From Burkholderiales bacterium (GTDB lineage Bacteria > Pseudomonadota > Gammaproteobacteria > Burkholderiales > Usitatibacteraceae), in NCBI GenBank assembly GCA_017853245.1, contig JAFMJY010000003.1:1-49835 (forward strand): a DNA stretch of 49,835 nucleotides. The letters are read 5' to 3'. Below, in pieces: positions 33,560-41,940 of the stretch. Both the position numbers and the translations under genes were made by a program. How positions within the stretch are numbered: position 1 is the first letter of the stretch; every line of letters begins with the position of its first letter. The notes under the pieces are model-generated. The model did not search any database. It saw only the letters and a program-made list of their open reading frames with translations, and was not told the origin of the DNA.

Positions 33560-36070
33560 ATGACGCCTCCATCCCCGCTCGGCATTTACGAGTTCGATCA
33601 ATTCCGCCTGGATGCGGTCGAAAGGGCCCTCTGGAAGGGCAACAGGCGCCTGACCGTAGGTGGCCGGGCCTTCGATGTACTGACGACCCTGGTGCGGCGG
33701 GCCGGAAAGCTCGTGACCAAAGAGGAACTGTTCCGGACCGCCTGGCAGGGAAGGGTGGTCGAGGAAAGCAACATTCACGTCCAGATTTCGAGCCTAAGGA
33801 AGCTTTTAGGGAGCGAGGCGATTTCGACGGTTTCGGGGCATGGGTATCGGTTGGAGATGTCGCTCAAGGAGGGGGCTCTTAACGAACCCCAACCGCTCGG
33901 CGCTACGCTGCCACTGCCGTTTGGCAGTCTCGTGTCTAGACCGACTGAACTCGCCGAAATCATCGGTCGGGCTAGCAAAAGCCGACTCGTAACTGTTCGC
34001 GGAATGGGGGGAATTGGAAAGTCACACCTTGCCATGGAGGCATGCCGCGCGCTGATGGTTGGCAGGTCCAACCTCCGGTGCTGGTACATCCCTATTTCCG
34101 GGGCTGAATCAGGCGACTCCTTGGTTGCAGCTTTGTTGGCGCCTATCGGCAAGGGTCTGCCGTCCGCCGAAAATCAGCTAGAGGCGTTTTTCGTGGCAGT
34201 CAGGCAAGCACCCACCCTCGTGCTGATCGATGGCTGCGAAATGGTCACAGCCGCACTTGGACCAATCCTTCGGCGTGCGCTAGAGCAATGTCCGGAGCTG
34301 GTCGTGGTCTGCACTAGTCGGAAGGCCTTGGGCCTTGTCGGGGAGGCTGTCTACGAAGTCCCGCCACTGGAGGCCTCTGCTGCGAAGAAACTCTTTTTGG
34401 AAAGAGCCTCAGCCTTGACGAACGCAGTGGATCTAGGGGGCGATGGCGATGCACGACTAGACAAAATCCTTTCGCGGCTGGAGGGCATACCGCTCGCAAT
34501 AGAGCTTGCCGCAGCGCGTCTTCGCGTGGTCGGGCTGCCGGAACTCGAGTCTCAGCTTGCCGACCTGTTGGATTCGTTGGTGGGGGTAGACACTTCTCTG
34601 CCTGATCGCCAAAGAACCCTACGAGCAACTATCGAGTGGAGTTATCAGCTTCTAACAGCTGACGAACGTGGCTTTCTTAATCGGGTTGCCGTCTTTGAAA
34701 ATCCTTTTAGTGTCGAGGCTGCTGCGGCAGTTGGTTTAGGTGACGAAGAAGCCATCTCGCTAGCAGTTACCCTGCTAGCGGGCCTAGTAGATAAATCCTT
34801 ACTAAGCCCTGCATCGGTAGGCGGCAAGCGCCGATATCGTGTAATGCAATCGGTGCGCGAATATGGGATAGAGGCGCTTCATATATCCAGCTCTTACAGA
34901 CTGACCAAAGACTCACATGCTCAATTCCTTCGACGCAAGCTCGAGGCTGCTATCAAGCAGCAGCATCAATCCGAGTGGTTTACTAACCACCTTCCCGAAA
35001 TTAGTGTGCAGTGGTCCGATTATCAAGCTGCACTATCGTTCTGTTTATTGGCGCCCGAGTGCGATGGAAACCTTGGCGCTGAATTGGCATCGAGCCTTAT
35101 TCATTACTGGATAGATCAGGGGAAGGTGGCTGATGCGATTCATTGGCTTGAGCTCGCGCTGGGGAGAGTCGACAACAACCAGGCACGCCTCTCCACGCTG
35201 CGCGCTCTAGGTTGCGCCCATGCTGAAGCGGGACGCTTTGATGCTGCAATCGTGACATTAAGCGAAGCGTTCGAGGGCTTTTCTTCGATTGACCCTACCT
35301 CGCGAGACGTAGCCATCACCGCTAATGAGCTGGGAATCGCTTATTTCGGCATACAAAATTTCGCAGAGGCACTTAGGCTATATGAGCTGTCTCGAAAGCT
35401 TCATGCTGCCGCTAACAGGGGGGAGCGCATAGGGCAGGCAACACAAAATATTGCAGTAATCCATTTTGTAGAGGGCGATCTTCCAGAAGCGGCGGCTTCA
35501 ATTGAGCAGGCTCTGGTTCTTCACCAGCGCGCAGGTAATGTGAGGTCTCAGTTCACTTCGCTCCTTTGGCTTTCAGATCTGAAGTACATCAACGAGCAGT
35601 ACGAGCTTTCTTACCAGTTACTCCGCCAAGCAGAGCAACTTAGGCCCGCCAAGACTGCAGATCTTCCCGCCGCGGCTACGCTGTTTCGGTTGGCGCGTTG
35701 CGCTGCGGTGCTCGGAAAACTGGAAGAGGCGGGGCGGTCTGCGACGGAGTCAATCTTGATATTGCTGGAGATTGGCAATCCCAGAGCCTTGGCTGAATGT
35801 TTCGACAGCGTGGTGGTGGTGGGTATGGCCTTGGGTGAATCCAGGCGCGCGAGCCGGCTTCTGCAAAAAGTTTCATCGTGGAGAGAGCGCAGAAAGACTC
35901 CGCGAAGTCGCATTTGGTCTGGCTACTATGCGCAACTTTTCGCGCGCATGTCGGTCGACCAGTCTTGCGGCGAAGAAGATCTTGGCGATGATGTCGCGGA
36001 ACTGCCTTCGGGGGCCATGACGCTTGCGCAGGAAATACTCCGGTTAGCAGTCACCCATCCGGCAGTTTAG
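33560..36070 (+). CDS. STAND regulator: winged helix, NB-ARC ATPase and TPR repeats
   Basis: An 836-residue regulator. Residues 8-100 form an OmpR-type winged helix (FDVLTTLVRRAGKLVTKEEL, VQISSLRKLLG, VSGHGYRLEM). Residues 125-440 form an NB-ARC-like P-loop ATPase: Walker A GMGGIGKSH (148-156), Walker B LVLIDGCE (about 220-227), sensor VVCTSR (249-254) and EGIPLAIELAAARL (about 308-321). From about 460 to the end are helical TPR-like repeats (STLRALGCAHAEAGRFDAAI, NELGIAYFGIQNFAEALRLY). Such proteins usually hold DNA-bound transcription in check until a ligand binds the TPRs. Codon use is richer in TTA, CTA, ATA and AAT than in neighbours, hinting at transfer. The start has no strong ribosome site. 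Confidence 0.85.
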   Translation: MTPPSPLGIYEFDQFRLDAVERALWKGNRRLTVGGRAFDVLTTLVRRAGKLVTKEELFRTAWQGRVVEESNIHVQISSLRKLLGSEAISTVSGHGYRLEMSLKEGALNEPQPLGATLPLPFGSLVSRPTELAEIIGRASKSRLVTVRGMGGIGKSHLAMEACRALMVGRSNLRCWYIPISGAESGDSLVAALLAPIGKGLPSAENQLEAFFVAVRQAPTLVLIDGCEMVTAALGPILRRALEQCPELVVVCTSRKALGLVGEAVYEVPPLEASAAKKLFLERASALTNAVDLGGDGDARLDKILSRLEGIPLAIELAAARLRVVGLPELESQLADLLDSLVGVDTSLPDRQRTLRATIEWSYQLLTADERGFLNRVAVFENPFSVEAAAAVGLGDEEAISLAVTLLAGLVDKSLLSPASVGGKRRYRVMQSVREYGIEALHISSSYRLTKDSHAQFLRRKLEAAIKQQHQSEWFTNHLPEISVQWSDYQAALSFCLLAPECDGNLGAELASSLIHYWIDQGKVADAIHWLELALGRVDNNQARLSTLRALGCAHAEAGRFDAAIVTLSEAFEGFSSIDPTSRDVAITANELGIAYFGIQNFAEALRLYELSRKLHAAANRGERIGQATQNIAVIHFVEGDLPEAAASIEQALVLHQRAGNVRSQFTSLLWLSDLKYINEQYELSYQLLRQAEQLRPAKTADLPAAATLFRLARCAAVLGKLEEAGRSATESILILLEIGNPRALAECFDSVVVVGMALGESRRASRLLQKVSSWRERRKTPRSRIWSGYYAQLFARMSVDQSCGEEDLGDDVAELPSGAMTLAQEILRLAVTHPAV

Positions 36071-36236: not shown

Positions 36237-36312
36237 TGGCTCCCCGACCAGGGCTCGAACCTGGGACCTGCGGATTAACAGTCCGTCGCTCTACCGACTG
36301 AGCTATCGGGGA
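36237..36312 (-). tRNA. tRNA-Asn (GTT)
   Basis: A 76-nt cloverleaf on the minus strand. The acceptor arms TCCCCGA / TCGGGGA pair over seven positions, followed by discriminator G and an encoded CCA. The D-arm region is GCTCAGTCGGTAGAGC, the anticodon loop CTGTTAA (anticodon GTT, Asn) and the T-arm CCAGG-TTCGAGC-CCTGG. The gap between it and the NB-ARC gene (36071-36236) shows no gene, only a G10 run. Confidence 0.97.
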
Positions 36313-36333: not shown

Positions 36334-36362
36334 ATTCTATTTTTGTTCTGGAGTTTGGTCAA
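36334..36362 (-). promoter_or_regulatory. Promoter of tRNA-Asn inside the HD-GYP gene 3' end
   Basis: On the minus strand TTGACC (36357-36362), a 17-bp spacer and TAGAAT (36334-36339) form a near-consensus sigma-70 promoter. Its start site would lie about 15 nt before the mature tRNA 5' end. The -35 and the spacer are within the last codons of the HD-GYP gene. Confidence 0.7.
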
Positions 36363-38220
36363 CGAGTGACCCAACTGAGGGCGTGCACGGCGAGATCTCT
36401 TCAGTGGTCGCCAACTCGTCAGGCGCGTTCGGTTTTCCCAGGGCATCCCAGATCTTCGATCGCGCTTGGAGAAATGGCGAGCTGTGTGCCGCCTCGCCAA
36501 GATAAGCATCCAGATCCTTGTGCTCCCTCTGGAGCCGGTCAATGAGGGCCACGAACAGGGCGGTGAGTTCAGGATCAAACTGCCGGCCCTGCAAGGAAGA
36601 AATCTCTTCGATCGCCTTTGCTACCGGCCACGGCTCCTTATAAGGTCGCTTGTGCGTTAGGGCGTCAAAAACATCAGCAAGGGCGGTAATGCGGGCTGCA
36701 AGCGATATGTTCTGCCCAGAGAGATTTCCCGGATAGCCTGTGCCATCCCACCATTCGTGGTGACTCCGTGCTATGTCCTCCGCCATCTGCATATGTGGAA
36801 TGTTGCTCTTCGACAAAAGCTCAGCGCCGACGGTGGTGTGGGCTTTCATCACGGACCGCTCTGCGTCGTTCAGCTTGCCAGGCTTCAGCAAGATTGCATC
36901 CGGTACTCCAATTTTTCCAATGTCATGAAGCCGCGCAGCAAGTTCGATCATGAAGCATGTGCCTGGGTCACAACCAAACTCAGCTGCAAGCAACGCCGAA
37001 AGTTTACCGACACGATATGAGTGTTTACCTGTTGAATCGTCGCGCAGTTCAGCAGTTACAGCGAGCCTTTCAAGCATATCGATCCGGGACCGAAACAGCT
37101 CCTGCTCCGCGACCTGACCCTTAAGCGCTGCCTCACGCCGCTCCAGCGTTTTTTCAACTCCAGTCGCCTCACCCAAACCGATTAGTCCTCTTTCCTGCAA
37201 ATGGATTTGGAGGTGCTTTAGCGCGTTGTCTTCCTGTGACCTAACCCCCGTATCCATCATTTCTCGCAGGTAGAGCAAGGCGCGCTGCGGTTGTCCCGCA
37301 ATCTCGTGAGACTTAACGAGGGCAGCAAGGCAGTCGCGCAGCATGGACCGGAGAGCCTTGGCCCTCTCCGAGGCTGCAGTCAAGCGCGAAATGCCAACAT
37401 CAACTCGCCCGGCGTGGACCTCACATAGGCCTTCAGCAAGAGTGGCGGCAATCTCGGCCCGCGCTGATCCGCTTTGAGAAGCGTACTTTTTTGCTATAAG
37501 CGCACGTTCTTTAGCGTGCTCAGTATCGTTGACCTCGAGAAGTAATCGGACATAATTGTTCTCGCGCAGAACCCTATTCAAGATCTCTGCTCGGCTCTGT
37601 GGCTCAGGGCTTTCCCGGACTGCCGTTGCAGCGGCACGCAACCCTCGAGAAAAATCCTCGAGGTGAAGGCAGCAAAGCGCGATATTCGATAAAGCGCTCA
37701 AACGAAAGGCAACTAAAGACTTATCGTTAGACGCAATGTCGATGACTCGTTCAAAGCATAAGAGGGCGTCTCGGTACTGAGCCCAGTTGAGCAGTGCCAC
37801 ACCAAGATTCACTAGCGAGGCGCACTTTCCCGCACTGTCGAGCAGTTGCTCCGAAAGCGCTAGCGCGTCGGCGTAGGCCTCAATAGCAAGAGCGAAGTTG
37901 CCGGTGTCCGCGCTGATTACTCCGAAAAAGTTCAGCGCTCGGCGACGCAGATGATCGAGCCCACATTCCTCGGCTATGGAGATTGCGGTCTTCACCGGGC
38001 CGAGAGCCTGGAACGGGTGCCCTAGCGTGTAGAGGAGCTGTGCCGCATCCAGTAGGACCGAGATGCGAGCCTCCGACAAATGGGGCGCATGCATCGGGGT
38101 GGCTATTGCCGCAGCTTGTGAGATCTCCTCAATCGACACCTCCGCGGGGGAGCCGAGTGCTCGCTTGAGGAAGCTGGAAGCTTTGGCTAGTGCCTCTTCG
38201 ATATTGGGTTCGTTCGTCAT
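36337..38220 (-). CDS. TPR-HD-GYP cyclic-di-GMP phosphodiesterase-like protein
   Basis: A 627-residue cytoplasmic protein with no membrane helices. Residues about 50-345 are helical TPR-like repeats (KCASLVNLGVALLNWAQYRD, LSNIALCCLHLEDFSRGLRA), then a short coiled coil (355-390) and an intact HD-GYP domain: GKHSYRVG (H400), RLHDIGKIGVPD (H432, D433), KAHTTVGAELL, HHEWWDGTGYPGNL (GYP 495-497) and ALADVFDALTHKRPYK. This should hydrolyse c-di-GMP under control of the TPR region. It is divergent from the small double-glycine peptide gene (206-bp gap). The ligand of the TPR part is unknown. Confidence 0.9.
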   Translation of the reverse strand: MTNEPNIEEALAKASSFLKRALGSPAEVSIEEISQAAAIATPMHAPHLSEARISVLLDAAQLLYTLGHPFQALGPVKTAISIAEECGLDHLRRRALNFFGVISADTGNFALAIEAYADALALSEQLLDSAGKCASLVNLGVALLNWAQYRDALLCFERVIDIASNDKSLVAFRLSALSNIALCCLHLEDFSRGLRAAATAVRESPEPQSRAEILNRVLRENNYVRLLLEVNDTEHAKERALIAKKYASQSGSARAEIAATLAEGLCEVHAGRVDVGISRLTAASERAKALRSMLRDCLAALVKSHEIAGQPQRALLYLREMMDTGVRSQEDNALKHLQIHLQERGLIGLGEATGVEKTLERREAALKGQVAEQELFRSRIDMLERLAVTAELRDDSTGKHSYRVGKLSALLAAEFGCDPGTCFMIELAARLHDIGKIGVPDAILLKPGKLNDAERSVMKAHTTVGAELLSKSNIPHMQMAEDIARSHHEWWDGTGYPGNLSGQNISLAARITALADVFDALTHKRPYKEPWPVAKAIEEISSLQGRQFDPELTALFVALIDRLQREHKDLDAYLGEAAHSSPFLQARSKIWDALGKPNAPDELATTEEISPCTPSVGSLVDQTPEQK

Positions 38221-38281
38221 CGCAACACAGCCGGAAGCCGCCGAAGCAGTTTGCTCTATCTCTTAAACGCTAACGGACTAG

Positions 38282-38310
38282 TTGACAAACTTAAACATTT
38301 CGATGAAGAC
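38282..38310 (+). promoter_or_regulatory. Candidate promoter for the double-glycine peptide gene
   Basis: A perfect -35 TTGACA (38282-38287) is followed at 18 bp by a weak -10 (AAGACT, about 38306-38311). The mismatch in the -10 suggests activator dependence. Read on the other strand, the same -35 bases form TTGTCA, which could serve the divergent HD-GYP gene. The leader to the peptide ATG would be about 110 nt and would include the truncated core copy. Confidence 0.4.
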
Positions 38311-38358
38311 TAGCACCTAACCTCAGGTTATTCAAAGGATTTTCCCGGTCGCCTTAAT

Positions 38359-38399
38359 TCACCGTTGGTCGCGGCTGCGGTGAAGTGATCTTCTACTAA
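38359..38399 (+). pseudogene. 5'-truncated duplicate of the peptide core-coding end
   Basis: This 41-nt stretch matches the 3' end of the peptide gene 119 bp downstream at 35 of 41 positions. Translated it gives TVGRGCGEVIFY then a stop, against TVGGGCGEVVFY in the intact gene. Of six differences, four are silent third-position changes and two change residues (Gly to Arg, Val to Ile). A TAA stop lies five bases upstream in the same frame and no start or leader is present, so it is a remnant. The Arg destroys the double glycine. Confidence 0.8.
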
Positions 38400-38426
38400 A
38401 CACCCCTCACGACAAGGAGCGAAACC

Positions 38427-38558
38427 ATGGAATTCAGCAAGGTTGAAATGAAAGAAGTTGCCAAGGCTGCCGATGAAGCCGTGCAAGCCATCACGGAGCT
38501 GGCTGACCTGGACCTCGTCACCGTTGGTGGCGGCTGCGGCGAAGTAGTCTTTTACTAG
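38427..38558 (+). CDS. Small double-glycine leader peptide (putative secreted heptapeptide precursor)
   Basis: A 43-codon gene with ribosome site AAGGAGCGAAACC before its ATG. The product starts MEFSKVEMKEVAKAADEA and continues as an amphipathic helix to ITELADLDLVTVGGG, then CGEVVFY. Taking cleavage after G36, the leader matches the double-glycine consensus: L25 at -12, D29 at -8, L30 at -7, V33 at -4, G35 and G36 at -2 and -1. The core would be C37-Y43, seven residues with an N-terminal Cys. Cleavage after G35 would give an octapeptide. The gene runs tail to tail into the C39 ABC exporter gene, sharing CTAG. No modification enzyme is nearby. Role (signal or bacteriocin) is inference. Confidence 0.8.
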   Translation: MEFSKVEMKEVAKAADEAVQAITELADLDLVTVGGGCGEVVFY

Positions 38559-40630
38559 ATGGTCTGCTGATTGCCCGATACCGACACCACCCGATACCCC
38601 CCCCCAACCGTCTCCGGCCGATGGCTAACTACTACAACAGCCACGCCAGAACGGGATAGGCCCTCAGAAATGCTCCGTTCGAGCGAGAGGTCCAACTGGT
38701 CGAACGCCTCATCGAGGAATAGAACCTTGGGGTTGCGGTAGAGGGCGCGGGCAAGAAGTACTCGCTGTTTCTGCCCCCCTGATAGCGCCGCGCCAAGCGA
38801 GCCTACGATGGTGTTGTAGCCCATTGGCATTGCGCTGATTTCGGAGTCGACGTGGGCAAGCCGGGCGCACTCTCGAGCCCGGTCGGGGTCGTGCTCGGGG
38901 TCGAAGAGGCTGATGTTATCTTCGACGGTGCCTGCGAACAGTTGGTCATCCTGCATCACCACGCCGATCCGACGGCGATAGGCGGCGGAGTCGAACTCCC
39001 TGAGATTCCGCCCGTTGACAAGAATCGCGCCCTCGGTGGGTTCCATGAGCCCCACCAACAACTTGATGAGCGTGGTCTTGCCGCATCCGGAAGGGCCTAC
39101 GATAGCGACGCAATCGCCGGGTCCGAGAAGTACGTTTACGTTCCGGAACACGAAGCCCTCCGGCCCGTAGGCAAAACCCAAGTCCCTGGCTTCCACCGTG
39201 ATCGGCCCTTCGGAGTTCCCCACGAGGGCGGGCCGCGAGGCCTCCGGCTCGGCCAGGGCGATGTCGGCGATGCGCTCCGCATGCAGGTCCAGCATCCGAA
39301 AGTCGTTCCACTTTTCGACCAAGGCGTTCACTCGGCCGAGGAACACGAGCTTGAACCCAAGAAACGCGTAGAGCATGCCAACCGTGAACACGCCCTGCAT
39401 TACGGCAAGCGCACCCAGCCAGATGATGGCCACGTTTTCGAGGCCAAAAATGAGTGCCGCCGCACCGCGCTGTGCGATGCCTATGTTTTGCACCTTCACG
39501 CCAGCGTTGATCTGGTCCACCACCAGGTTCTGGTAGGCCGCCAGGCGCTCCTTTTCGCGCAAGTTCAGCTTGATGGCCATCATGCCGCGCAGCGTCTCGA
39601 TGAAGTGCGTCCCGCTCTTCGCTTCATGTGAGAGCTGCTCATCTGTGGCGCTGCGCTGCGGGTAATACAAGCCCCACCGCACTGCAATGTAGAGCAACGC
39701 GGCCAACACCACTACTGCGGTGAGTGTGGGGCTATACCAGGCCATGACAACAAGCGTGAGCACGATCATCAGGCCATCGACCACCGTCTCGACGAAGGTC
39801 GTGGTGAGCGTGCGTTGCACCGCGTCCACGCTGCGGAACTTGGAGACGATGTCGCCAATGTTTCGCTTTTCGAACCAGGGAAGTGGTAACCGCACCAGAT
39901 GCGAAAACAGTGTGGTGAGCAGTCGCAGGTTCAGGTTCGTGCTGAGATACACGCTTACCCAGGCTCGCACGGCAGTCACGGCAACGGTAATGACCACCAA
40001 CGCTGCAAAGCCAACGCCGAGCACGGTGAGCAGGTCCCGATCCCGCCCTACAAGTACGCGGTCGACGACCAGCTGCAGGAAGAACGGCATGGCAATGGCA
40101 AAGACTTCCAAGGCCAGGGACAAGACGATGATCTGCGCGATGGCGCCCTTTAGCCCGCGTGCCACCCCCAGGAACTGAAGGGCGCTGATTCTCTCCCGCT
40201 CATCGCGAGGGCTGAAGCTTGCCGTCGGTGAAAACTCCATGGCAACGCCGGTGTAGTGCCGGGAGGCCTCGTCCAGCGTCATTGAACGACGTCCGCGGGC
40301 CGGGTCGTGAATCTCGATTCGGCGCCCCTTTGTCGACACGAGCACAACGAAGTGGTTCATGTCCCAGTGCAGTACCGCGGGGAGCCGCAGCTGGCTGAGC
40401 GCCTCGAGGGGGGCCTGCACGCCTCGAGAAGAAAGCCCCATGTTCTCGGCGATGCCCGCCACGTCCTTGAGCGTGATGCCTTTGAGCGAGGGCGATAGGC
40501 GTACCCGCATCGCGGACAGGTCGGTGAGGTAGCCGTGATAGGACGCCACCATGGCGAGGCAGGCGATGCCGCACTCGGGCGCCTCGCTTTGCAGGATCAC
40601 CGGCACGCGGGCGCCGAAGAGCGAGCTCAT
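38555..40630 (-). CDS. C39 peptidase-containing ABC exporter (PCAT)
   Basis: A 691-residue exporter that would cleave double-glycine leaders and export the core. The N-terminal C39 peptidase is complete: Q14 (oxyanion), C20 in SEAPECGIACLAM, H93 in DMNHFVVL and D109 in IEIHDPARG. A six-helix membrane domain (about 155-430) and a nucleotide-binding domain follow, with Walker A GPSGCGKTTLIKLL, signature LSGGQKQRVLLARAL and Walker B VLFLDEAFDQLD. The ATG overlaps the stop of the HlyD gene by 1 nt (TGATG). The last 13 residues follow a G9 tract (38597-38605 on this strand as C9), a potential slippage site. The stop overlaps that of the peptide gene. Confidence 0.94.
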   Translation of the reverse strand: MSSLFGARVPVILQSEAPECGIACLAMVASYHGYLTDLSAMRVRLSPSLKGITLKDVAGIAENMGLSSRGVQAPLEALSQLRLPAVLHWDMNHFVVLVSTKGRRIEIHDPARGRRSMTLDEASRHYTGVAMEFSPTASFSPRDERERISALQFLGVARGLKGAIAQIIVLSLALEVFAIAMPFFLQLVVDRVLVGRDRDLLTVLGVGFAALVVITVAVTAVRAWVSVYLSTNLNLRLLTTLFSHLVRLPLPWFEKRNIGDIVSKFRSVDAVQRTLTTTFVETVVDGLMIVLTLVVMAWYSPTLTAVVVLAALLYIAVRWGLYYPQRSATDEQLSHEAKSGTHFIETLRGMMAIKLNLREKERLAAYQNLVVDQINAGVKVQNIGIAQRGAAALIFGLENVAIIWLGALAVMQGVFTVGMLYAFLGFKLVFLGRVNALVEKWNDFRMLDLHAERIADIALAEPEASRPALVGNSEGPITVEARDLGFAYGPEGFVFRNVNVLLGPGDCVAIVGPSGCGKTTLIKLLVGLMEPTEGAILVNGRNLREFDSAAYRRRIGVVMQDDQLFAGTVEDNISLFDPEHDPDRARECARLAHVDSEISAMPMGYNTIVGSLGAALSGGQKQRVLLARALYRNPKVLFLDEAFDQLDLSLERSISEGLSRSGVAVVVVSHRPETVGGGYRVVSVSGNQQTI

Positions 40631-41859
40631 CAGAGTCGATCTCGCAATTGCAAAACGGGCTCGAACAGCCACTCGAGGATGGTGCGCCGCTCGAGCAGGA
40701 TGTCCGCATTGACGAGCATGCCGGGGCGCAGGGCCACTTCCTTGCCCAGCGCTGAAACGGTCTGGCGCTCAAGCGTCACTTGCACGCGGTAGACCGGTTC
40801 CTTGGCCGTGATTGGCCCCAGTCTCTCACCCGGGGACCATACATTGCGACTGATCTCCGCCACCGTGCCGCCGTACTGTCCGAAGCGCTCATGTGGGAAT
40901 GGCTCGTAGCGAAGCACAACTTTTTGGCCCTGGGTAATGAAACCGATGGCCCGGGAGGGCACCAGCAACTCGGCGTGCAAGGCGCTGCCCACCGGCACCA
41001 CGGTGGCGAGCGGCGTATTTGCGGCGGCGGATTGGCCCGCGGAGACGGCGATGTTGGTGACAACGCCGCTCACCGGTGCGCGAATCACGGTGCTGCGCTG
41101 GGCTTCGGCCGAGGCGAGGCTTTCTTGCAGCTCCGAAAGTTGGCGTGAGACCTGGCCGATCTGGGTTCGCGAGCGCAGTTTGAGGGCGGGTTCCTCGAGG
41201 CGGGCGGTGGAGAGGTCTCGCTCGGTCTGCAGGCGCGAGCGGGCGAGCGCCTGGAGCTTGATCTCCTGTTCGGTCACCTCGTCCTGCTTCTGCTTGACCA
41301 GCAACTCGGAGACAAACTTGTCCCCGGCCAGTTGCTGGTAGCGCGCTGCCTGCTCCCTCGCGCTTCGCACCCGGGTCTCCTGCAGCTTGATCTCGCGGTC
41401 AGCCTGGGCAAGCTCGCCTTGGAGGTCGGTGATGCGCTTGCGCAACTGCGCCGCCTGTTGTTCACCCAACTCGCGCACTTGCTCCTGCTCGCGCTGAAGT
41501 AACGTACGGCGGCTGGCGAGCTCGGTGGCGGAGGCCTCGGCGCTGCCGCGATCGTAGGCGATGGTGGCGATGGGCGCCCCGGCTTCGACCGGGTCACCCT
41601 CCTTTACCAATAGCTCGGCCACGCGCCCAGCTTCCGGGATCAGCACACGCGCAGCGCCGGCATCGAGGGCAAGGCTGCCGTCGACACGCTCTCGACGCGT
41701 GTATTCCCCCCAGATGGCAACGGACAGCAGGACCAGCGCAACCCCGGCGGCGAGCAGCGTGTACACCCAGTAGGCAACGGGGCGGGCGAGGCTCGTTCCG
41801 CCCAGATACTTCTCCCGCTGGGCGTCGATGGCTTCCTGGCGGAAGAGGCTGCGGCTCAC
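40630..41859 (-). CDS. HlyD-family membrane fusion protein of the peptide exporter
   Basis: A 409-residue periplasmic adaptor. One N-terminal membrane helix (about 28-50, VYTLLAAGVALVLLSVAIWG) leads to a split lipoyl/barrel-sandwich domain (VAELLVKEGDPVEAGAPIAT and IRAPVSGVVTNIAVSAGQSA) flanking a long coiled coil (about 105-260), then a beta-barrel end (VYRVQVTLERQTV). It would link the ABC exporter to an outer-membrane TolC-type channel, not seen here. GTG 41859 (SRSLFRQEAIDAQREKYLGG next) was preferred over an upstream GTG at 41910. A -10-like TACAAT sits only 9 nt before this start. Confidence 0.9.
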   Translation of the reverse strand: MSRSLFRQEAIDAQREKYLGGTSLARPVAYWVYTLLAAGVALVLLSVAIWGEYTRRERVDGSLALDAGAARVLIPEAGRVAELLVKEGDPVEAGAPIATIAYDRGSAEASATELASRRTLLQREQEQVRELGEQQAAQLRKRITDLQGELAQADREIKLQETRVRSAREQAARYQQLAGDKFVSELLVKQKQDEVTEQEIKLQALARSRLQTERDLSTARLEEPALKLRSRTQIGQVSRQLSELQESLASAEAQRSTVIRAPVSGVVTNIAVSAGQSAAANTPLATVVPVGSALHAELLVPSRAIGFITQGQKVVLRYEPFPHERFGQYGGTVAEISRNVWSPGERLGPITAKEPVYRVQVTLERQTVSALGKEVALRPGMLVNADILLERRTILEWLFEPVLQLRDRL

Positions 41860-41940
41860 GATGGGCGGATTGTAAGGCAGCCCCCCTAAAGCCCGGCTTG
41901 CGCCAGGCACGGGGGTGCAGCTTGCAGCCCTGCCGGAAGG

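Follow-up and report, generated by a model that had tools for sequence, protein, structure and literature searches.

Short double-glycine peptides encoded beside TPR-HD-GYP proteins in Burkholderiales: a candidate pheromone family with a proposed c-di-GMP output

DSF is a cell-density signal that acts via RpfC and RpfG and ends in an HD-GYP phosphodiesterase; the signal is a fatty acid, relayed by a membrane kinase and phosphotransfer, with no peptide and no TPR protein. DSF RpfC/RpfG quorum sensing is listed in PMC13220807, and the sensing of re-imported pheromones by cytoplasmic TPR receptors is treated as a Gram-positive system, that of Bacillota (PMC10075063, PMC13220807). In these RRNPP or RRNPPA systems (Rap-Phr, NprR-NprX, PlcR-PapR, and AimR-AimP), a short linear peptide lies at the C-terminus of a small precursor whose gene adjoins that of a TPR protein; PMC9765709 gives Sec or PptAB as the export routes of the propeptides, and repeated identical pheromones are also known (PMC11343458). 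A GG motif or a C39-domain exporter has been connected with biofilm or differentiation in the abstracts on EbfG/PteB of Synechococcus (PMC4997328) and on HetC of Nostoc (PMC10986499). The former describes EbfG as small secreted proteins, the latter HetC as an exporter of unknown substrate, and neither abstract mentions a TPR-HD-GYP partner. Among the titles and abstract openings listed by literature searches, none connects double-glycine peptides with TPR-HD-GYP proteins.

The locus described here was found in a window of 49,835 bases, which is the whole stretch of DNA analyzed, and its features are collected in Table 1. The best reading is that of a C39-exported heptapeptide with a TPR receptor and a c-di-GMP output in a Gram-negative member of Burkholderiales, working like the RRNPP systems. 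With these it shares the short peptide at the end of a small precursor, a precursor gene adjoining the gene of a TPR protein, a TPR superhelix (Pfam TPR matches and AlphaFold2 model) in a receptor that looks cytoplasmic, a conserved Asn in the TPR part as in Rap, and Rap proteins with peptide as the top VIA matches of the predicted fold. It differs from them by its host (Betaproteobacteria instead of Bacillota), by a double-glycine leader encoded next to C39/HlyD where those systems export through Sec or PptAB, by the HD-GYP output and the divergent gene order, and by having generic TPRs as nearest TPR sequences. Because the Sec/PptAB feature is absent and descent is hard to judge from repeats, we do not file the system as an RRNPP member. 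A GG motif or C39-domain exporter in a Gram-negative is the point in common with EbfG/PteB and HetC; with DSF, it is the path from cell density to an HD-GYP phosphodiesterase, which here would start from a peptide and a TPR protein. We give a probability of roughly two in three to the proposal that CGEVVFY is an exported linear heptapeptide pheromone sensed by the TPR-HD-GYP protein P0004 with c-di-GMP as output. What sequence comparison and structure modeling show is a recurrent gene pairing, selection on the amino acids of a core that is similar within a locus and different between loci, and a TPR part whose predicted fold closely resembles that of Rap receptors.

Table 1. Coordinates of the peptide locus within the window
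Feature	Positions	Strand	Basis or remark
P0004, TPR superhelix and HD-GYP phosphodiesterase, proposed peptide receptor	36337..38220	-	Pfam, AlphaFold2 model
Intergenic region between the divergent peptide and TPR-HD-GYP genes	38221..38426	.	contains the remnant copy
Remnant of another precursor copy that lacks its 5' part, FTVGRGCGEVIFY then stop	38358..38399	+	TAA stop codon immediately 5'
Ribosome-binding site AAGGAG	38414..38419	+	sequence; ATG seven bases downstream
Precursor gene	38427..38558	+	43 codons; sequence and homologues
Double-glycine leader of the precursor	38427..38534	+	36 residues
Core CGEVVFY	38535..38555	+	7 residues; stop codon 38556-38558
P0002, C39 peptidase-ABC exporter	38555..40672	-	domain scan and sequence
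P0003, HlyD-type periplasmic adaptor	40630..41910	-	Pfam/NCBIfam scans

The precursor reads MEFSKVEMKEVAKAADEAVQAITELADLDLVTVGGG followed by CGEVVFY. Double-glycine leaders follow a consensus of L-12, E/D-8, L-7, a hydrophobic residue at -4, and GG, and the leader of the window agrees with it (L-12, D-8, L-7, V-4, G-2, and G-1), ending in GGG. The original prediction had named these leader positions, the 43-codon gene with its good ribosome site, and a C39 exporter with its HlyD partner directly adjacent, all of which were found as described. A whole-precursor homologue in a genome of the same genus (G002; 62% identity, E 3.8e-11) takes the gene beyond chance and, judged by sequence, the 43-codon gene is real. 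When 200 relatives and the own genome were searched, precursor matches with E < 0.05 occurred in nine genomes, while the weaker matches, listed up to E 1, lay mostly within long frames and resembled noise. The peptide has no match in Pfam and NCBIfam. Its gene and that of the exporter meet tail to tail, their stop codons overlapping by four bases (CTAG), and a loosely defined ribosome site was found at 46 of the 56 precursor genes scored.

The remnant upstream of the intact gene has the core codons TGC GGT GAA GTG ATC TTC TAC TAA, to be compared with TGC GGC GAA GTA GTC TTT TAC TAG in the intact gene; three codon changes are silent, one turns V into I, and the stop codon differs. In its leader, GGG has become GRG by replacement of the middle G with R. 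A scan of positions 38150-38620 gave no match to a sigma-70-type promoter and a single terminator-like match, which lies inside coding sequence and compares with 0.6 expected by chance. An Rfam scan of the window detected neither a c-di-GMP riboswitch nor any other RNA except a tRNA gene (36240-36312, minus strand), located in the gap that separates the TPR-HD-GYP gene from the gene after it. Near the receptor, the window also holds a gene (33560-36070) for P0005, a regulator with winged-helix, NACHT-like ATPase, and TPR parts; in L032-L035 and L037, a second TPR-HD-GYP gene follows the receptor in its place.

The exporter P0002 comprises C39, ABC membrane, and ATPase domains. Its C39 domain (Pfam Peptidase_C39, E 6e-32, residues 23-151) has Q28, C34, H107, and D123, which we take to be the catalytic residues. 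The leader, the gene adjacency, and this intact C39 domain together argue for export of the peptide by C39-ABC/HlyD. Of the 26 genomes with a receptor in the two other families, 25 have exporters of the P0002 type (E <= 1e-100). In the peptide-bearing genomes of family f38 (genus g41), the C39 exporters are at best 46-51% identical to P0002 and several nevertheless adjoin the receptor, as in G064 at about 1 kb, so that C39 exporters of more than one branch are found in this neighborhood.

Relatives of the peptide were sought by iterated profile searches of small open reading frames, in part around the exporters; a search of species genomes with the C39 exporter gave a list of loci of which the best 80 (L032-L111) were retained. 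The branch of close exporters, L032-L061, has 30 loci; peptides were found in 18 of them and none in the other 12, including L045 and L050, where the receptor is present and there is little upstream sequence. The family set amounts to 87 precursors from 48 loci with 60 distinct cores, hand-picked from the scans, with two candidates (L040 4187 and L043 8097) dropped as they have no usable start. Every leader is of the double-glycine type and leaders tend to finish LxxLxLxxVGGG, followed by cores such as CGEVIMA, SGDVAFG, IGDVVFA, IGDTII, CGDVIWG, GGDVFVG, NVIVDLG, QAVMVFL, and LGAVSFY. The core has 7 residues in 69 precursors, 6 in 15, 8 in 2, and 10 in 1, one of the two 8-residue cores being a mis-set register at L037 (GSGDTVWA taken for SGDTVWA). 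This narrow length was not imposed by the strict scan, since the latter permitted 4-12 residues; the set was, however, hand-picked. The original prediction had placed the core in the size range of pheromones, in keeping with the 6-7 residues of 84 of the 87 precursors, and had proposed a search for homologues with a conserved core beside C39 exporters. Such homologues exist, and the idea survived.

Several loci carry multiple precursors. L183 has six in tandem, with the core EAVGTTY in five and EAVGSTY in one, and the three genes for QAVMVFL at L055 differ in their codons and considerably in their leaders. A single genome, G403, has at least four receptors that each have a peptide gene of their own, for QAVMVFL (L177), SLAIIEIY (L233), SLAVVEM (L238), and SGIFVLA (L241). 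At L037:8073-9215 (CP019169.1, GR16-43), a tandem array of six precursors encodes four different cores (CGDVIWG twice, GGDIHWG twice, GGDIVWG, and SGDTVWA) next to one receptor pair.

Other short GG peptides were encountered at more distant loci. In a distant C39 branch (Rhizobacter, Rubrivivax, and others), a second type lies shortly upstream of HlyD (L063:4539-4697, L078:4486-4659, L079:4267-4419, L085:3355-3510, L097:4414-4572, L105:4477-4641, and L106:4238-4390), with cores such as VHPTGSW, LPKGGWRVK, EGATSSPVKGW, and TDLPKKVW that contain a Trp close to the C-terminus. Convergent genes for GG peptides are found 3' of more distant TPR-HD-GYP genes (L131:4105-4377, L133:160-432, L186:4168-4410, and L187:4243-4455); three of these have a Trp-Pro tail, for instance DVSPEWPTTNG, and the fourth ends EIGPYW.

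The TPR-HD-GYP gene accompanies the peptide well beyond the window. By tblastn, a P0004 relative was present in 16 of the 18 peptide-bearing loci of the close branch, the other two (L040 and L057) ending within about 350 bases of the exporter, and in none of the 50 more distant exporter loci (L062-L111). Among the 12 peptide-less close loci, a receptor was found in L045 and L050 and a match to the HD part in L044. In one group of loci the peptide sits between exporter and receptor, and in L047, L053, L055, L059, and L060 the receptor sits between exporter and peptides. Since receptor and peptide are divergent in both gene orders, with the exception of L043, and are inverted jointly with respect to the C39 exporter, they behave as one unit. 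At L041:8461-10281, a close exporter relative with no peptide detected, a 7TMR-DISM GGDEF diguanylate cyclase takes the place of the TPR-HD-GYP neighbor. Searches with the receptor only led to more loci in three families, and a strictly scored GG peptide was found in 25 of the 41 loci L202-L242. With receptor profile A1, 72 of 399 genomes of the order matched at E <= 1e-70, many through the HD-GYP part alone; at E <= 1e-85, searches of the class (369 genomes) and of the phylum (398 genomes), in which at most three candidates per genome were scored, retrieved only the own genome, so that absence from the others is tentative.

The association was counted with a strict scan combining the leader pattern, an ATG, and a Shine-Dalgarno sequence, for genes with at least 450 nt upstream and a peptide on the opposite strand within 1.6 kb. 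A divergent GG-peptide gene was detected at 34 of 53 non-redundant TPR-HD-GYP genes as against 0 of 13 HD-GYP genes without TPR (L188-L195 and L197-L201), 11 genes having been dropped for insufficient 5' or upstream sequence. The second copy of L037 (no peptide) and L238 (peptide), which are HD-only by the first-Met rule and really TPR-HD-GYP, were excluded from both counts, and receptors without the HD-GYP motif, such as L220 (peptide present) and L216 (peptide absent), went uncounted. These figures agree with an earlier census based on a narrower receptor motif that missed some receptors (33 of 51 paired, 30 of the 33 having their nearest peptide no more than 500 nt away), from which five TPR-HD-GYP and three HD-only genes had been dropped because their upstream sequence was too short. 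Rereading 12 of the negatives by eye revealed a divergent GG peptide in seven (L053, L182, L185, L210, L213, L217, and L239) and none at L045, L181, L203, L229, and L236. The seven negatives outside this rereading are the second tandem receptor copies of L032-L035, L043 (whose peptide is on the opposite side), L232, and L237, which leaves 12 of the 53 receptor genes where the divergent peptide is still absent.

Regarding chance, the strict scan gave no match in 34 control loci (110,916 bases), which include 20 weak and apparently chance peptide matches and are thus not a random sample. In the distant exporter loci (616,011 bases) it gave nine matches, each of another peptide type and a short way upstream of HlyD, and the window had two extra matches elsewhere. 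As the upstream sequence of the 53 cases amounts to at most about 85 kb, a few chance matches would be expected against the 34 observed. The divergent TPR-HD-GYP gene, which the original prediction had overlooked, is a recurrent partner of the peptide, and likely encodes its receptor.

In P0004, a TPR superhelix (about residues 4-343) precedes an HD-GYP domain (PF13487, E 6.2e-36; top Foldseek match 4mcw) with HDIGK at 432 and HHEWWDGTGYP at 487. All 22 proteins aligned share the signature residues without exception, and the domain is apparently intact as a c-di-GMP phosphodiesterase. The protein has no apparent membrane segments and, read from its sequence, looks cytoplasmic. AlphaFold2 predicted full-length P0004 with a mean pLDDT of 83.9 and a pTM of 0.55, and the TPR part alone with 89.9 and 0.83. 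With VIA-align, ranks 1-6 are occupied by Rap proteins with bound or added peptide, both for the whole model (Z 27.7-26.9, 310-320 residues aligned, rmsd 3.3-4.8) and for the TPR part (Z 27.6-26.4, 310-320 aligned, rmsd 3.6-5.0). APPBP2 (25.5 and 24.6 for whole model and TPR part), MalT (25.2 and 25.4), and the best LGN (24.9 and 24.7) lie only some 1-3 Z units lower, so that any TPR superhelix may score like Rap; NprR reaches 20.8-24.0 and AimR 19-20. Foldseek, in two runs, found designed TPRs and LGN to be nearest and placed LGN above Rap and NprR, with NprR at ranks 36 and 32 and Rap at rank 41 in the second run. A TPR sequence profile retrieved designed TPRs and eukaryotic LGN first and, further down, Rap105 (E 9.6e-5) and RapF (E 2.7e-4), and phmmer with part of the P0004 TPR region listed no Rap. 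A Rap-like groove in P0004 is plausible, which is no proof of kinship.

Among the 39 peptide-paired receptors compared, the TPR positions of highest information content are Asn179 (39/39) and Asn138 (38/39), and Glu220 (39/39) and Arg216 (38/39) are also near-invariant. Judged from hmmsearch match ranges, Asn138 falls within about one residue of Asn227 of RapF, the peptide-anchoring residue there. According to PMC3601957, a strictly conserved Asn holds the peptide backbone in RNPP proteins, and asparagines also anchor it in TPR domains more widely.

Within loci, 67 pairs (identical genes excluded, and not mutually independent) have a mean identity of 0.81 in the core and 0.60 in the leader, with 30 identical cores, whereas the 3664 pairs taken between loci average 0.14 and 0.32 and never have the same core. 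At a leader identity of 0.20-0.35, core identity is still 0.81 within loci (6 pairs) as against 0.12 between them (2375 pairs). For the most diverged pair of each of 18 loci, the core has a pN/pS of 0.147 and the 15 leader residues preceding GGG have one of 0.510; the core is more conserved than the leader in 13 of these loci, less so in 2, and equally in 3. The register error at L037 affects both the identity and the pN/pS sets and lowers within-locus core identity. Selection, as read from these sequences, is acting on the amino acids of cores that are similar within a locus and different between loci. Overall, this pattern fits a signal read by one receptor more than diversifying toxins; the four cores at one receptor of L037 are a counter-example.

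The cytoplasmic appearance of the receptor, its divergent position next to the precursor gene, and the absence of a dedicated importer gene beside the pair in the window would also suit a regulator acting in cis. The precursor or its uncleaved tail would then bind the TPR-HD-GYP protein in the cell that made it, with the exporter merely clearing it and the system gauging synthesis or export capacity, not the presence of neighboring cells. We hold this to be unlikely, as a narrow core of 6-7 residues under selection beside diverging leaders fits a free cleaved peptide better and as a C39 exporter adjoins the pair in many loci.

Core and receptor also vary together. For 39 of the 48 loci (seven with missing, cut, or doubly counted receptors were left out and two were missed by the motif), core similarity correlates with TPR similarity (Spearman 0.404) and with HD-GYP similarity (0.326). 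The partial correlation with the TPR part given HD-GYP is 0.257, a value reached in 0 of 2000 permutations, and that with HD-GYP given the TPR part is 0.049; this TPR/core correlation is modest and could stem from a faster TPR part resolving ancestry better. That a change of core accompanies a change of TPR, and that cores are alike within a locus, speaks against an exported self-peptide acting outside the cell, in adhesion, in the matrix, or on a surface receptor, with the TPR-HD-GYP protein regulating its production. Such a role has a precedent, as other double-glycine proteins of Gram-negatives serve biofilm, for instance EbfG1-4 of Synechococcus in the abstract of PMC4997328. Nonetheless, 6-7 residues are short for a structural part, and we regard this role as improbable.

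Class II microcins are exported by means of a double-glycine leader, a C39 exporter, and HlyD, and have a long antimicrobial core and an adjacent immunity gene. The export set of the window matches theirs, which would accommodate an ultra-short bacteriocin or microcin. We disfavor this explanation strongly: the core has just 7 residues, tandem paralogues mostly retain the same core, the recurrent neighbor is a c-di-GMP enzyme, and the window has no gene, remnant copy aside, between the peptide gene and its two neighbors, hence no adjacent immunity gene. Lastly, the N-terminal Cys of the window core, to which the original prediction had attached a possible disulfide dimer or cyclization, could denote a disulfide, thioether, or cyclized product, which we consider hardly credible and reject as the key feature since only 4 of 60 distinct cores are Cys-first and 10 of 60 have any Cys, and the four neighboring genes scanned with Pfam/NCBIfam include no modifying enzyme, just as had been noted for maturation enzymes.

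For a linear heptapeptide pheromone, the following sequence of events may be proposed. The gene at 38427-38558 would encode the precursor of CGEVVFY, which the C39-ABC exporter and HlyD would cut after GGG, exporting the core. The peptide would build up outside and re-enter the cell, probably via porins and an oligopeptide permease. The SBP_bac_5 class includes oligopeptide-binding proteins and is represented in six of six genomes searched, with 16 members in G000. Re-import is thereby possible, importers being common and their presence unspecific. Inside, the core would bind to the cytoplasmic TPR protein of the divergent gene, in its concave groove, where the conserved asparagines may anchor it. 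Binding would make the fused HD-GYP domain change in activity and would thereby shift cellular c-di-GMP, which would couple cell density to a c-di-GMP-controlled behavior such as motility or biofilm.

With slightly better than even confidence, we extend this proposal to a large Burkholderiales family, without a description in the literature searched, in which C39-exported pheromones of 6-7 residues bind to the TPR domain and so directly switch the c-di-GMP phosphodiesterase fused to it, with several peptide-receptor channels per genome and with an origin independent of RRNPP. The dozens of peptide-receptor pairs with known cores, the tandem copies, and the multi-receptor genomes constitute a ready test set for specificity. 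If the proposal is true, the logic of re-imported pheromones and TPR receptors would operate in Gram-negatives as well, where it would rely on another exporter and have c-di-GMP turnover as its direct output.
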